Positions 47,727-53,599 of a stretch of DNA of 64,000 nt are shown in pieces; position 1 is the first letter of the stretch; every line of letters begins with the position of its first letter. The position numbers and the translations under genes are program-made. The stretch comes from Veillonellales bacterium (GTDB lineage: Bacteria; Bacillota; Negativicutes; Veillonellales; Dialisteraceae). The notes beneath the pieces are model-generated. The model made no database searches, was not told the DNA's origin, and saw only the letters and a list, made by a program, of their open reading frames with translations. The stretch covers positions 186,001 through 250,000 of the forward strand of contig CALXPQ010000002.1 in NCBI GenBank assembly GCA_944390485.1, written 5' to 3'.

Positions 47727-48929
47727 TCACAGGAAGTAGGGATTGGCCGACGGCTTCTGCGATTTGAACGCTTCGTAGAGCCGGTTCATGCCCTCCTCCA
47801 GCGTGGCCCGCGGGCACGCGATGTTGAGCCGCACGTAGCCGCTGCCCTCCGAGCCGAAGATGTGGCCCATATTCACCCACAGGCGGGCGTCGTTCAGGAG
47901 CTTCTGCTCCAGCGCGGAGTCCTTGAGGCCGTAGTAGCGGAAATCCAGCCACAGGAGGTACGTGCCCTCCGGCTCCACCAACTTGATGTACGGGAGATTG
48001 GCCGAGAGGAAATTCCGCACGTAGTTGAGGTTCCGCAGGAGGTATTCCTTCAGCTCCTCCAGCCAGGCCTTCCCGCCGGTGTAGGCCGCGCGGCCCGCCA
48101 CGAGGCCGAAGAGGTTCGGATGGATGGCGCCGCACGCGGTGAGCTCCTTCCGGAACGCCGCGCGCATCTCCGGGTTCGGGATCCAGATATTCGCATCCTG
48201 CAGGCCGGAGAGATTGAACGTCTTCGTCGGGGCCGTGCAGATGACCGCGTTCATGGCGTCCGCTTCGGAGAGCGTGCCGAAGGCGGTGTGCTTGTAGCCC
48301 GGATAGGTGAAGTCGCAGTGGATCTCGTCCACGATGACCCGCACGTGGTGGCGGCGGCAGATGGCGCTGTACTGGGACAGCTCCTCCCGCGTCCACACGC
48401 GGCCCGTTGGGTTGTGCGGCGAGCAGAGGAGGCTCAGGCGGACGTTGTTCTCCGCGATTTTCCGCTCGATGTCCCCCAGATCGTTCATGCTGTATTTCTT
48501 GCCGCGGCGGATGAGCGGGCTCTTCACCACGCGGCGGCCGTTGTTGCGGATGGCTGATTCGAAGCACTGATAGACCGGCGTCTGGATGAGCACCGCGTCG
48601 TCCGGATTCGTGAACGCGCGCACCGCCGCGTTCAGCGCGGGCACGACGCCCGAGGTCTTCACGAGCCATTCCCGCTTCGTGTCCCAGTGGAAATTCTGGC
48701 GGAACCAGCGGTGCACCGCGGCGAAGTACGTGTCCTCCATGTCGGAATACCCGTAGATGCCGTGCGCGGCGGCCCGGGCGAGCGCTTCCGTCACGCAGGG
48801 GGCCGTCCGGAAATCCATATCGGCGATCCAGAAGGGGAGGATGTCCGGCGCATAGCCCCGCTCCCCGGCAAAGTCGTATTTCAGGGAAAACGTATGCCGG
48901 CGGTCGATCACCGTATCAAAATCATACAT
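47727..48929 (-). CDS. MalY/PatB-family PLP aminotransferase (putative cystathionine beta-lyase)
   Basis: 400 residues from the minus-strand ATG at 48929 (AAGGAGG). Fold type I PLP enzyme: LPFWIADMDFRTAPCV, HGIYGYSDMEDTYF, LLCSPHNPTGRVWTREEL, VIVDEIHCDFTYPGY and the PLP Lys in TAPTKTFNLSGLQ. MalY/PatB enzymes cleave C-S bonds of cystathionine or cysteine conjugates, releasing homocysteine or thiols. It diverges from an amino acid ABC operon, which fits a role in sulfur amino acid use (inference). Two hairpin terminators lie behind it. Confidence 0.9.
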   Translation of the reverse strand: MYDFDTVIDRRHTFSLKYDFAGERGYAPDILPFWIADMDFRTAPCVTEALARAAAHGIYGYSDMEDTYFAAVHRWFRQNFHWDTKREWLVKTSGVVPALNAAVRAFTNPDDAVLIQTPVYQCFESAIRNNGRRVVKSPLIRRGKKYSMNDLGDIERKIAENNVRLSLLCSPHNPTGRVWTREELSQYSAICRRHHVRVIVDEIHCDFTYPGYKHTAFGTLSEADAMNAVICTAPTKTFNLSGLQDANIWIPNPEMRAAFRKELTACGAIHPNLFGLVAGRAAYTGGKAWLEELKEYLLRNLNYVRNFLSANLPYIKLVEPEGTYLLWLDFRYYGLKDSALEQKLLNDARLWVNMGHIFGSEGSGYVRLNIACPRATLEEGMNRLYEAFKSQKPSANPYFL

Positions 48930-49271
48930 GGGAGGGCCTCCTTCTCCGCGGCGCACAGGCACTGGTCCGGCTTCGCCGGATGGCTCCGGCGGGACGTGCG
49001 CACGGCGGACTGCCGGCCGGAAACTGCCGCGCAGGCATGCTGACAGCCGACAAAAAATGAGAATCTTCACTACACCATACAGTTTACAGCGAAAACCATA
49101 TCGGTTTCAATGAATTTTTACAGATGTAAAGACAATTCGCCTATAGAAATTTTCCATTAAGAGATACAGAAAAGTCATGTATGAGAGAAGCGGTCCGGCC
49201 CGGTGTCCTGCGGCGTGTGAATGACGGTGCCCTGCGGATATGAACAATGCTTAAATTTTCCCATCAGGCGG
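48930..49271. other. Divergent intergenic region, no gene seen
   Basis: About 340 bases between the aminotransferase start and the ABC operon promoter. 49060-49180 is AT-rich and contains a possible minus-strand promoter (TTGAAA 49110-49105, 16 bp, TGTAAA 49088-49083) and the palindrome TTTACAGATGTAAA (49117-49130). No coding frame looks real here. Confidence 0.6.
49117..49130. promoter_or_regulatory. Perfect palindrome TTTACA-GA-TGTAAA
   Basis: 14 bases with 6-bp perfect half-sites just upstream of the possible aminotransferase promoter. It could be an operator; the regulator is unknown. Confidence 0.4.
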
Positions 49272-49300
49272 TTGCCGCGGGCGCGGCCGGATGATACAGT
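49272..49300 (+). promoter_or_regulatory. Promoter of the ABC / UroD-like operon
   Basis: TTGCCG (49272-49277), 17 bp, TGA-extended TACAGT (49295-49300). Confidence 0.6.
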
Positions 49301-49305
49301 AATGG

Positions 49306-49461
49306 CAATTACACGGAGCCGCGGAGACCGGTCAGGCCGGCTTCTCCCGGGACTGCCCGATACAGCAGAGAGCCGCAGGGCTCGAGACGGCCCATGCATC
49401 CGCATGGGCAGGAATGGGTGAGAATCAGGAAGCTTCCGTCCCTTTGGGGCGGAGGCTTTTT
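49306..49461 (+). promoter_or_regulatory. Structured 5' leader with terminal terminator (candidate riboswitch or attenuator)
   Basis: After the promoter come three hairpins: GGAGA-CCGG/CCGG-TCTCC (~49323-49348), GAGCC/GGCTC (~49370-49383) and GCCCATGC/GCATGGGC, perfect (~49390-49409). A terminator (49430-49461) follows, then the ABC ATPase gene 55 bases later. A GACGG at 49386-49390 can pair with CCGTC inside the terminator arm. It matches no riboswitch class I know. Confidence 0.5.
49430..49461 (+). terminator. Leader terminator before the ABC ATPase gene
   Basis: GCTTCCGTCC paired with GGGCGGAGGC (two T-G pairs), loop CTTTG, followed by TTTTT at 49457-49461. Confidence 0.75.
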
Positions 49462-49515
49462 GCGTATCCGGCCTCTGCGGGCCGCGGCGCCGGCAGGGCG
49501 GAAGGAGGAGAGACG

Positions 49516-50271
49516 ATGGCGATACTTTCTGTGGAAGAGCTGGAGAAATCATTCGGGGACAGGCAGGTGCTCCGGGGGATCTCTTTCCGGGCGGAGGAAG
49601 GGGACGTGGTATCGGTGCTGGGGCCGTCCGGCACGGGGAAGACCACCATGCTCCGCTGTCTGAATGCGCTGGAGCGGCCCGACGCGGGACGGGTCGCCAT
49701 CGGCAGCGTGTCGGTGGATTTCCGGCACGCTTCGAAAAAGGAGGTGCGGGCGCTCCGCCGGCAGTCCACCATGGTCTTCCAGAATTTCAATCTGTTCCGC
49801 AATCATACGGTGCTGGAGAACGTCATGGACGGGCTCGTCTACGGCAAGGGGATGACCCGGGCGGAGGCGGAGCCGCTCGCCATGGAAGAACTCGCCCGGG
49901 TCCATATGGAGCAGGCGGCGCACCTGTACCCGGCGGAGCTGTCCGGCGGGATGCAGCAGCGCGTGGGCATCGCGCGGGCGCTGGCTCCGAGGCCGGAGGT
50001 CATCCTGCTGGACGAGCCTACGTCAGCGCTCGATCCGGAGCTCGTGGGCGAGGTGCTGGACGCCATCCGCAAGGCGGCTTCCCTGGGGATCACCATGATC
50101 ATCGTCACGCACGAGATGCGCTTCGCCGAGCAGATCTCGACGAAGGTGCTGTTCATGGCGGAGGGGCGCGTGGTGGAAGAAGGGCCTCCGCAGCAGATCT
50201 TCCATCACCCGGAACAGGAAAAGACGCGGCAGTTCCTGCGCCGCATGCTGGAAAGAGAACAGGAGGGATGA
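49516..50271 (+). CDS. Polar amino acid ABC transporter ATP-binding protein
   Basis: 251 residues from ATG 49516 (GAAGGAGGAG). Walker A GPSGTGKTT, signature LSGGMQQRVGIARALA, Walker B VILLDEPTSALDPE, and H-loop VTHEM. The QNFNLFRNHTVLENV Q-loop region is typical of the GlnQ/HisP-type polar amino acid group. It energises the two membrane proteins encoded at 51145 and 51843. First gene of a five-gene operon; binding protein 3 bases downstream. Confidence 0.95.
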   Translation: MAILSVEELEKSFGDRQVLRGISFRAEEGDVVSVLGPSGTGKTTMLRCLNALERPDAGRVAIGSVSVDFRHASKKEVRALRRQSTMVFQNFNLFRNHTVLENVMDGLVYGKGMTRAEAEPLAMEELARVHMEQAAHLYPAELSGGMQQRVGIARALAPRPEVILLDEPTSALDPELVGEVLDAIRKAASLGITMIIVTHEMRFAEQISTKVLFMAEGRVVEEGPPQQIFHHPEQEKTRQFLRRMLEREQEG

Positions 50272-50274
50272 CAC

Positions 50275-51126
50275 ATGGATTACAGAAAAAAGATCCTGGC
50301 CGCGCTTGCGGCGGGATGCCTCGCAGCGGCGCTCTTCGCGGGCTGCGGCGGCAGCAGCGCGCCGGCGGCGGATGCCGAAGGAAAGACCGTCATGAAGACG
50401 CTGGTGTCGGCGACGGAGCCGCCTCTCGCCTGGAAGGACGCGGACGGGAAGATCCAGGGCTATGAATACGACGTGCTCTGCGAAGCGGGCCGCCGGCTCC
50501 GGTCGTATTCGCTCGATATCGACGCGGTCCCGCCGGAGACGCAGGACGTGATGATGGAGTCCGGAGAGGCGAAGCTCGCCGCGGGCGGCTACTACCGCAA
50601 TCCCCAGCGGGCGGCGAATTACATCATCCCGGAGAATCCCATCGGCGCGAGCGCGCTCCTCGTCTATGTGAAGCAGGGTGAAGAGACGAAGTACCGGGAC
50701 CTGAAGGAGGCGCTCGCCGCAGGGCTCCGGCCGTGCCCTTTCACCTCGGGACACGGGGCGTTCCGCATCCTGTCCGAATGGAATGAGAAGAACGGCAGGC
50801 CGCTCGGGGAGGAACTGCCCGTGCAGAGCGGCGTCACGCAGGCAGAGCGCATCCAGGCCATCGGGGCGGGGCAGTACGACATGCTGATCGTCCCGGGCAA
50901 TCTGAATATCGAGAAGCTCAGCCGGGAGGAAGGCGTGCCGCTCGCCCCGCTGGCGGCGCCCGTGCAGGTGGATCCCACGGTGGTGCTCGTGAACAGGCAG
51001 GAGCCGCAGTTCGCAGAGGAGCTCAATGAGGCGCTCGGTTCCATGCGGCAGGACGGGACGCTCTCCTCTCTTTCGGAGAAATGGTTCGGCAGCGACATGA
51101 TGCGGCTGCTGGATTCGGCGTCCTGA
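50275..51126 (+). CDS. Amino acid ABC transporter substrate-binding lipoprotein
   Basis: 283 residues; lipobox LFAGC near residue 24. Family-3 binding protein fold: VSATEPPLAWKDADGKIQGY, EYDVLCEAGRRL and the C-terminal SLSEKWFGSDMM. The ligand segments differ from the orphan binding proteins at 29.3-31.1 kb, so the cargo probably differs. It delivers substrate to the permease pair downstream. Start ATG 50275 with AGGAGGGATG, 3 bases after the ATPase gene. Confidence 0.92.
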   Translation: MDYRKKILAALAAGCLAAALFAGCGGSSAPAADAEGKTVMKTLVSATEPPLAWKDADGKIQGYEYDVLCEAGRRLRSYSLDIDAVPPETQDVMMESGEAKLAAGGYYRNPQRAANYIIPENPIGASALLVYVKQGEETKYRDLKEALAAGLRPCPFTSGHGAFRILSEWNEKNGRPLGEELPVQSGVTQAERIQAIGAGQYDMLIVPGNLNIEKLSREEGVPLAPLAAPVQVDPTVVLVNRQEPQFAEELNEALGSMRQDGTLSSLSEKWFGSDMMRLLDSAS

Positions 51127-51144: not shown

Positions 51145-51846
51145 GTGCTCAGCTTCGATCCTTCGTACTTCCTCGCGGTCTTTCCGCAGATCGCGGCGGC
51201 GCTGCCGTTCACTTTCTACGTGGTGGCCGCCGCGGCGGCGATGAGCCTCCTGGCCGGCGCGGCGGTGGCGGCCGTGCGCATCGCCCGCGTGCCGGTGCTG
51301 TACGCGCTGTGTGAAGTGTGGCTCTCTTTCGTGCGGAGCATGCCCTTCGTGCTGCTGCTCTTCCTGATGTATTTCACCGTGCCGGCATTCCTGCGGGCAG
51401 CCGGACTGGATACGTCCCGCCTGCCCAAGGAAGTCTATGTCTTCGCGGCGGTGGTCTTCGGCTTCGCTCCCGTCATCGGGGAGGTCATCCGCCCGGCGTA
51501 CCTTTCGGTGGACCGGGGCCAGCACGACGCGGCCAGGGCGTTCGGATTTTCTGATTTCGACCGCATCTTCCGCATCATCGTGCCGCAGATGATCCCGGTG
51601 GCCGCGCCGCCCCTGATGAATCAGGTCATCGAGATCGTGAAGGACACCTCGCTCATGTATCTGATCGGCCTGATGGACCTCATGGGCCGGGCGAATCTGC
51701 TCATCCATGTGAACATGGGCCGGGGCAAGCTGGAAAATTATGCCGCCGTAGCGCTCCTCTACTGGGTGCTCGTGGCGGTGCTGGAAGCGGCGGCGCAGTA
51801 CCTGAGCCGGCGGAGTTCCGGCGGTTTCCCGGGAGGTGCGTCATGA
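51145..51846 (+). CDS. Polar amino acid ABC transporter permease 1, GTG start
   Basis: 233 residues from GTG 51145 (AAAGGGGGTG). About five membrane segments of the HisM/GlnP family: FVRSMPFVLLLFLMYF (the usual RGTP-type segment reads RSMP here), AFGFSDFDRIFRIIVPQMIP (EAA loop), and NQVIEIVKDTSLMYLIGL. It forms the channel with the next permease. Its stop overlaps that gene by four bases. Confidence 0.93.
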   Translation: MLSFDPSYFLAVFPQIAAALPFTFYVVAAAAAMSLLAGAAVAAVRIARVPVLYALCEVWLSFVRSMPFVLLLFLMYFTVPAFLRAAGLDTSRLPKEVYVFAAVVFGFAPVIGEVIRPAYLSVDRGQHDAARAFGFSDFDRIFRIIVPQMIPVAAPPLMNQVIEIVKDTSLMYLIGLMDLMGRANLLIHVNMGRGKLENYAAVALLYWVLVAVLEAAAQYLSRRSSGGFPGGAS

Positions 51847-52550
51847 CCTTTGACATCCATGTGATGGCCTCGGCTTTTCTCTACATCCTGCCGGCGGTGC
51901 CGCGGACGGTGCTGCTCGCGGCGTTCGTGCTGGGCGCAGGCATCGTGCTGGGCGCGGGCATCGCAGTCCTACGCATCGGCCGGCACCGCATCCTGAATCC
52001 CGTCCTCGCGGTGTGGGTGTCTTTCACGCGGGCCGTGCCGGCCATCGTGCAGATCTTCATTGCCTATTACACGGTGCCCTTCCTGCTCGCCCCGGTCCTG
52101 AGCGCCGCGGCGGGCGCGGAGGTGAAGCCTTTCGACGTCAGTCCGTACTGGACGGGGTGCCTCCTCTTTATCCTGTACCATGCGGCCTACCAGTCGGAAA
52201 ATATCCGCGGGGCGCTCCTGTCCGTGCCGAAGGGGCAGTACGAAGCGGCCATGAGCATCGGCATGACGCCGGGGCAGGCGCGGCTGCACATCGTCTTCCC
52301 GCAGGCGCTGTCTGTGGTGCTCCCCACATTTTTTACCTATTATCTGCACGCGCTGAAAGCGCTGGCGCTGCTCTTCACCATCCGCGTGGTGGACATCTTC
52401 TCCGCCGCGGACATCTATGCGGCGCTGGTGAGCCGGCGGACCGAGCCGTACGCGGCGGACGCGCTGGTGTACTGGATGCTGTGCCTCATCCTCACTGCGG
52501 GCTATCACCGGCTGGAGGCCTCTCTGACCCGGCGCGGGCGCGCAGGATGA
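51843..52550 (+). CDS. Polar amino acid ABC transporter permease 2
   Basis: 235 residues, five membrane segments. HisM-family motifs: WVSFTRAVPAIVQIFIAYY, YQSENIRGALLSVPKGQYEA (EAA loop with SIGMTPGQARLHIVFPQAL) and LHALKALALLFTIRVVDIF. It is a diverged partner of permease 1, so the channel is probably a heterodimer. Overlaps permease 1 by four bases; the UroD-like gene follows after 35 bases. Confidence 0.93.
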   Translation: MTFDIHVMASAFLYILPAVPRTVLLAAFVLGAGIVLGAGIAVLRIGRHRILNPVLAVWVSFTRAVPAIVQIFIAYYTVPFLLAPVLSAAAGAEVKPFDVSPYWTGCLLFILYHAAYQSENIRGALLSVPKGQYEAAMSIGMTPGQARLHIVFPQALSVVLPTFFTYYLHALKALALLFTIRVVDIFSAADIYAALVSRRTEPYAADALVYWMLCLILTAGYHRLEASLTRRGRAG

Positions 52551-52585: not shown

Positions 52586-53599
52586 ATGAACAGGGAAGAA
52601 CGGGTGCGCGCGGTCATCGAAGGCGGAACGCCGGACCGCGTGCCGGTATCGGTGTGGTTTCATTTCTCCGTGTACGATCAGGACCCGGTCTCGCTCGCCG
52701 AGGCGGAAGCGGACTTCGTGGAGACGTACGATTATGATTTCATCAAGATGATGCCTTTCGGCGATTACGGCATCCAGGACCTCGGAGCGAAGCTCTCCAT
52801 CTACTGCCAGCCGAACCGGCCGGTGACGCTCGCCGCTCCGGGAATCCGATCGATGGACGATTACCGGCATATGGAGGTCATCTCCGGCCTGCAGGGGACA
52901 TACGGCAAGCAGGTGGAATTCGCGCGGCATCTCGCCCGGTGCGTCCCGCCGCACACGCCGTTCATCCAGACCATCTTCAGCCCGCTCACTACGCTTCACA
53001 AGCTCACCGGCGGCCGCGTCCTCCGCGATCTGCGGGAAGATCCGGACGCGGTGCATCATGCGCTCGCCGTGGTGACGGCCATTACGGTGGATTTCATCCG
53101 CTATAACATCGATGCCGGGGTGAGCGGCTTCTTTTTCGCCACGCAGGACGCGCGGCGGCCGCTGCTGTCCCTGGAGGAATTCCGTACATTCGGGGAGTTC
53201 TATGACCGGCAGGTGATGGAGGCGTACATGGGCCGCACGTGGTTCAATGTCATCCATATCCACGGCATGGACGTGTATTTCGAGGAAATCCTGCGCCGGT
53301 ATCCGCCGGCGGTCCTCAACTGGCATGACCGGGATACCCCGCCGTCGCTGGCGGAGGCGCGGGCCCTCACGGACCGGCCCTTCCTCGCGGGGCTCCAGGC
53401 GGCGAAAAAGATCGCGGACGGCCGCGAGGTGTGGGACGATATCGTGAAGAACGGCACGCCGGAGAGCATCACGGCGCAGGTGCGGGATGCGATCCGCTCC
53501 GCAGGCGGGAAAGGGATCATAATCGGCCCGGGGTGCGTGGTGAATCAGGAATGCCCGGCGGCCAATCTCCGCGCGGTCCGGCAGGCGGTCGAAATCTGA
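52586..53599 (+). CDS. Uroporphyrinogen decarboxylase-family protein (MtaA/CmuA-like), not HemE
   Basis: 337 residues from ATG 52586 (GGAAAGGAG). UroD-fold TIM barrel: EERVRAVIEGGTPDRVPVSV, KMMPFGDYGIQDLG, and GIIIGPGCVVNQECPAANLR. The last is the methyltransferase-subfamily end motif. Methyl-cobamide:thiol enzymes of this family bind Zn with H-x-C...C; here the positions read His224-x-His226 (IHIHGMD) and Cys317 (GPGC), a variant set. Essential HemE residues are not evident. Last gene of the ABC operon, so it probably acts on the imported compound. Substrate unknown; no corrinoid protein is nearby. Confidence 0.85.
   Translation: MNREERVRAVIEGGTPDRVPVSVWFHFSVYDQDPVSLAEAEADFVETYDYDFIKMMPFGDYGIQDLGAKLSIYCQPNRPVTLAAPGIRSMDDYRHMEVISGLQGTYGKQVEFARHLARCVPPHTPFIQTIFSPLTTLHKLTGGRVLRDLREDPDAVHHALAVVTAITVDFIRYNIDAGVSGFFFATQDARRPLLSLEEFRTFGEFYDRQVMEAYMGRTWFNVIHIHGMDVYFEEILRRYPPAVLNWHDRDTPPSLAEARALTDRPFLAGLQAAKKIADGREVWDDIVKNGTPESITAQVRDAIRSAGGKGIIIGPGCVVNQECPAANLRAVRQAVEI

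Follow-up and report, generated by a model that had tools for sequence, protein, structure and literature searches.

Among described regulatory RNAs, the closest to the leader analysed here are the class I transcriptional T-boxes (RF00230), in particular the Cys-specific T-boxes of Dialister and its relatives. The S-turn of Stem II is an optional part of T-boxes, and glycine T-boxes do without it. Stem I is described as obligate for decoding (PMC7583486). A reduced Stem I is found in the short and ultrashort Stem I T-boxes of class II, which are mostly translational and keep the specifier loop. That RNAs other than T-boxes can sense tRNA has a precedent in the SAM-I riboswitch of Xanthomonas campestris, which is reported to sense uncharged initiator tRNA as well (PMC7270179); its architecture is unrelated and its control mainly translational. 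The leader in question occupies positions 49272-49515 of a 64,000-nucleotide stretch of a Veillonellales genome (hereafter, the window), and all its features lie on the forward (+) strand. It shares with the Cys class I T-boxes a Stem IIA/B with F-box, an RRRxG-like flank at Stem III, the antiterminator/terminator switch, and the place before a probable cystine transporter operon. Unlike them, it has no Stem I, specifier or Stem II S-turn, the AA 3' of its Stem III is displaced, and the Rfam model is blind to it. Its reduced Stem I recalls the class II T-boxes, but it has no specifier and carries an intrinsic terminator.

A promoter-like site at 49272-49300, composed of a -35 element (TTGCCG, 49272-49277), a 17-nt spacer and an extended -10 element (TGA-TACAGT, ending at 49300), is the top and sole strong site in a scan of 48930-49480. 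It has 8 of the 12 consensus bases, is equalled by 2.5% of shuffles and is absent from the list of a stricter consensus scan; the transcript start is inferred to lie near 49307. The RNA from 49307 to 49463 has a predicted folding energy of -78.3 kcal/mol (z -4.68, none of 200 shuffles as good), and the 144 nt upstream (49160-49303) show no structure beyond that of shuffles (z -0.16). Structure thus sets in at the end of the promoter. The promoter, three stable hairpins and terminator 55 nt before the first gene that the sequence-only reading had described are all present at the positions given. That reading had proposed a new ligand- or tRNA-responsive element, of which transcription attenuation and a possible involvement of tRNA stand, and a new ligand finds no evidence.

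The nature of the structured part was revealed by its relatives. When 61 related genomes, drawn from Dialister and its kin and from neighbouring families of the order (including Veillonellaceae bacterium UBA5809 and Phascolarctobacterium), were searched at the nucleotide level, short, strongly conserved matches appeared to 49347-49368 and to about 49415-49462, one of them a second copy within the window's own genome. Seen in their context, the matched loci are parts of T-box leaders, many of which pass the gathering score of RF00230. R1, a covariance model trained on T-box 3' halves from 19 relatives and not on the window, matches the window at 49345-49462 with 66.9 bits (E 1.3e-16), compared with 61.2 and 71.1 bits for intact T-boxes of the same genus, and a separate profile HMM matches the 3' half of the window with an E-value of 2e-14. 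By these comparisons, 49345-49462 is homologous to T-box leaders. Among 57 aligned T-boxes, 93.7% of cells are paired, 18 of 28 pairs have changed on both sides and the covariation score is reached by none of 500 shuffles, counts that are biased towards structure by the fitting of the alignment to the model. The modelled helices of this T-box 3' half covary strongly among relatives, and the class is not an unknown one. The window keeps 27 of the 28 modelled pairs intact, which points to maintenance. It keeps 24 of 27 near-invariant columns, the second lowest count of the 57 rows; GG is aligned with the near-invariant AA on the 3' side of Stem III, and one C is gone from the A2 helix, both of which look like signs of relaxed constraint.

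Rfam itself returns nothing for the leader at gathering level, and local scans list no T-box even at E <= 10. Two features conceal the T-box likeness, the lack of Stem I and a bulge that reads UGAGAAUC in place of UGGNACC; the exclusion of the T-box class by the earlier reading was mistaken in view of the R1 match and of the homology to leaders called by RF00230. The top local match, to the L31-Firmicutes leader (49473-49507; 25.7 bits, threshold 33.3), was rejected, as it overlies the Shine-Dalgarno region and precedes a gene that does not encode L31. Likewise, a cobalamin riboswitch, an idea suggested by GGTGAGAATC, receives no support from Rfam.

From 5' to 3', the leader opens with what appears to be the scar of Stem I (49304-49320), in which GGCAAT (5' foot, 49304-49309) is followed by TACA and CGGAGCC (3' foot, 49314-49320). 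Intact leaders start around GGCAATGA and their Stem I finishes with GGAGC; set beside a Stem I alignment of 21 homologues, the scar lacks about 90 nt holding the specifier and distal loops, and the four-base gap between the two feet suggests an internal deletion of about this length. The predicted fold and comparison with homologues place a shortened Stem II hairpin, GGAGACCGGUCAGGCCGGCUUCUCC, at 49323-49347; it is a plain hairpin from which the GAA/AGUA S-turn of the homologues is missing. The Stem IIA/B element CCGGGACTGCCCGATACAGCAG (49347-49368), with the F-box-like CCCGAUA, is supported by both nucleotide and R1 matches and is identical at 22 of 22 nt (100%) to intact T-boxes of other genera (G009, G011). 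It is followed by a small predicted hairpin, GAGCC-GCAG-GGCUC (49370-49383), the first hairpin of the sequence-only reading, an equivalent of which is present in L021, the intact Cys T-box of the window's own genome.

The R1 alignment then assigns 49385-49409 to AGACG, which fits the RRRxG motif expected 5' of Stem III, and to Stem III itself, GCCCAUGC-AUCC-GCAUGGGC, seen also as the hairpin GCCCATGC/GCATGGGC at 49390-49409. Stem III of the window is a perfect 8-bp helix with a sequence of its own; all nine of its modelled pairs covary among homologues, and the AA on its 3' side is displaced by two bases. The T-box antiterminator (49415-49442) comprises UGGG, the bulge UGAGAAUC (49419-49426) and a short A2 helix (GGA/UCC), and its A1 pairing joins GGG 49416-49418 with CCC 49440-49442. 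The antiterminator proposed earlier, GACGG (49386-49390), is complementary to CCGTC of the terminator, but homologues read GAGG at this place, and the A1 pairing is the actual alternative. The intrinsic terminator (49426-49462; core GCUUCCGUCCC-UUU-GGGGCGGAGGC at 49432-49456, T-run 49457-49461) ends 55 nt before the ATG at 49516. Both folds are possible and mutually exclusive, with predicted energies of about -27.4 kcal/mol for the terminator with its extension and -3.2 kcal/mol for the antiterminator. An open frame of 285 codons (49414-50271) runs from T-box sequence in frame via the terminator into the ABC ATPase, and it is probably there by chance.

The absence of Stem I was assessed with two models. 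A profile HMM of Stem I, some of whose training rows were incomplete, found no match over 48900-49560 and scored 47-51 bits in leave-one-out Stem I controls. A covariance model of Stem I (R2), with those rows corrected, found none over the same span (best score, 3.0 bits); Stem I with specifier, AGUA loop and distal loops is thus absent by both, and no S-turn is found in Stem II at 49323-49347. As a control, R2 was run on 70 further T-box loci, some of which overlap or belonged to the training set, and recovered Stem I at 67 of them (37 of 40 in L148-L187 and all 30 in L118-L147); the loci without an R2 match, L150-L152, have full-length Rfam T-box matches. A candidate degenerate Stem I upstream (GACGGTGCCCTGCGGA, 49223-49238) was discarded, as neither the HMM nor the covariance models detect it and the stretch is unstructured. 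The window therefore holds the sole T-box 3' half without Stem I in this survey of about 70 loci, in which no second genome carries the same deletion, and a search of open-licence papers returned no T-box without Stem I. Loci L150, L151, L153 and L154 each carry, downstream of a full T-box, another antiterminator/terminator unit that has no Stem I of its own. The extra units of L150, L151 and L154 resemble that of the window in this respect and differ from it in following a complete T-box, whereas nothing precedes the unit of the window.

Where a 7-nt antiterminator bulge opening with UGGN would be expected, the window has UGAGAAUC, which equals the expected UGGAAUC (present in L049) plus one inserted A and is shared with five intact Cys T-boxes of the family (L021, L022, L023, L029 and L040). 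The bulge is hence unusual, yet precedented, and does not account for the loss of Stem I. A noncanonical tRNA-Cys end that would explain UGAGA was ruled out, since the sole tRNA-Cys gene found in the genome has a normal U73-CCA end (TCCA). Locus L176 shows UGUGAAUC; the genome's tRNA-Cys is canonical.

The genes downstream are all full length. They encode an ABC transporter ATP-binding protein of the polar amino acid type (49516-50271; best NCBIfam match cystine TcyN, below cut-off), a substrate-binding lipoprotein with an SBP_bac_3 domain match (50275-51126), two permeases (51145-52550, i.e., 51145-51846 and 51843-52550; best NCBIfam match cystine ABC permease, below cut-off) and, as the last gene, a URO-D/MtaA-CmuA-like methyltransferase assigned by domain and family match (52589-53599). 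The operon is thus a probable cystine/cysteine ABC transporter with a UroD-like gene, and its divergent neighbour encodes a PatB-type C-S lyase. Within the family, all intact orthologous leaders that were found have a UGC (Cys) specifier: such T-boxes precede the orthologous ATPase in L031, L155, L159 and L166, the SBP in L042, L165, L169, L170 and L178, and a permease in L185. In a syntenic Phascolarctobacterium operon, a 40-codon cysteine-rich leader peptide, MKKYDVVKNVMCSMCMGSAMCMPSCCVAQKRMCLYYGSCR, is followed by a terminator-like hairpin (L113:2985-3153), and a related peptide (58% identical) is present in a second Phascolarctobacterium genome (L196:188-310, - strand). These organisms probably use leader-peptide cysteine attenuation instead of a T-box. 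A peptide of this kind was rejected for the window, whose open reading frames over the leader are not cysteine-rich. The same operon was found in neither of two congeneric genomes and in only one genome outside the family within the class. Three lines, i.e., the cystine-transporter matches with the PatB-type neighbour, the UGC specifiers and the cysteine-rich peptides, therefore suggest that the ancestral signal was cysteine.

Taken on its sequence features, the leader is best explained as a class I transcriptional Cys T-box that has lost its sensor and may now act mainly as a tRNA-insensitive attenuator, a reading given a probability of roughly 0.65. It is a T-box by descent that, having neither Stem I nor specifier, is not to be counted among functional T-boxes; it is probably a relic, a switch stuck mostly off, and not a new sensor. 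Transcription would start near 49307, and the RNA would fold through the Stem II remnant, Stem IIA/B and Stem III. With the docking of tRNA-Cys by codon-anticodon and elbow contacts lost, the weak antiterminator would be left unstabilised and the strong terminator would form in most transcripts, a fixed share of polymerases continuing into the probable cystine/cysteine transporter operon with its UroD-like gene. The terminator is expected to win because the specifier and the elbow-binding loops are gone and -3.2 kcal/mol faces -27.4 kcal/mol, and some readthrough is expected because all genes of the operon are full length. Counted against the relic reading are the 27 of 28 pairs and the perfect 8-bp Stem III, by which part of the element looks maintained, not decaying. 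These same pairings would suit a T-box that still works without Stem I, its discriminator (Stem III and antiterminator) binding the uncharged tRNA 3' end with no codon reading. Stem I and the Stem II S-turn have been lost together with the discriminator retained, and the bulge, the same in five intact Cys T-boxes, could pair with the U73-CCA end of tRNA-Cys in the form UG(A)GA, a single A being bulged out. The response would then be of low affinity and low specificity, to uncharged tRNAs and possibly to tRNA-Cys through this bulge, and is less likely than an attenuator. This alternative is judged unlikely, as Stem I is described as obligate and the loss of the elbow contact alone reduced affinity up to 60-fold and abolished readthrough in vivo (PMC7583486). 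In addition, the AA at Stem III is displaced, the A2 helix is shortened, and no second example exists among about 70 T-box loci.

If another sensor had instead taken over the old terminator, a leader peptide or a domain for a new ligand would stand where Stem I was, and the cysteine-rich peptide in the same position of the Phascolarctobacterium operon indicates that sensors are exchangeable. This is rather improbable, given that 49160-49303 is without significant structure, that the element follows the promoter directly and that the short reading frames across the leader lack a visible Shine-Dalgarno sequence and are not rich in cysteine. An assembly or strain-level artefact, the real genome having an intact Cys T-box, is distinctly improbable: the genome consists of 10 contigs at 94.4% completeness, but the deletion is clean, the promoter is at the normal place for a leader of this reduced length, and changes extend to Stem II and to the displaced purine string next to Stem III, a combination that one assembly error would not give. 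The proposal of the sequence-only reading, a new ligand riboswitch unrelated to T-boxes with a GACGG antiterminator, accords with the lack of an Rfam match and is barely credible, since both a covariance model and an HMM of the T-box 3' half match the leader significantly and homologues lack the GACGG pairing.

Rfam overlooks T-box derivatives of this kind, and leaders called 'unknown structured' in genomes such as this one need to be checked against a model of the T-box 3' half. A clean loss of Stem I with discriminator and terminator kept would offer a snapshot of a transporter operon losing its tRNA control or, alternatively, a natural test of whether the discriminator works alone.
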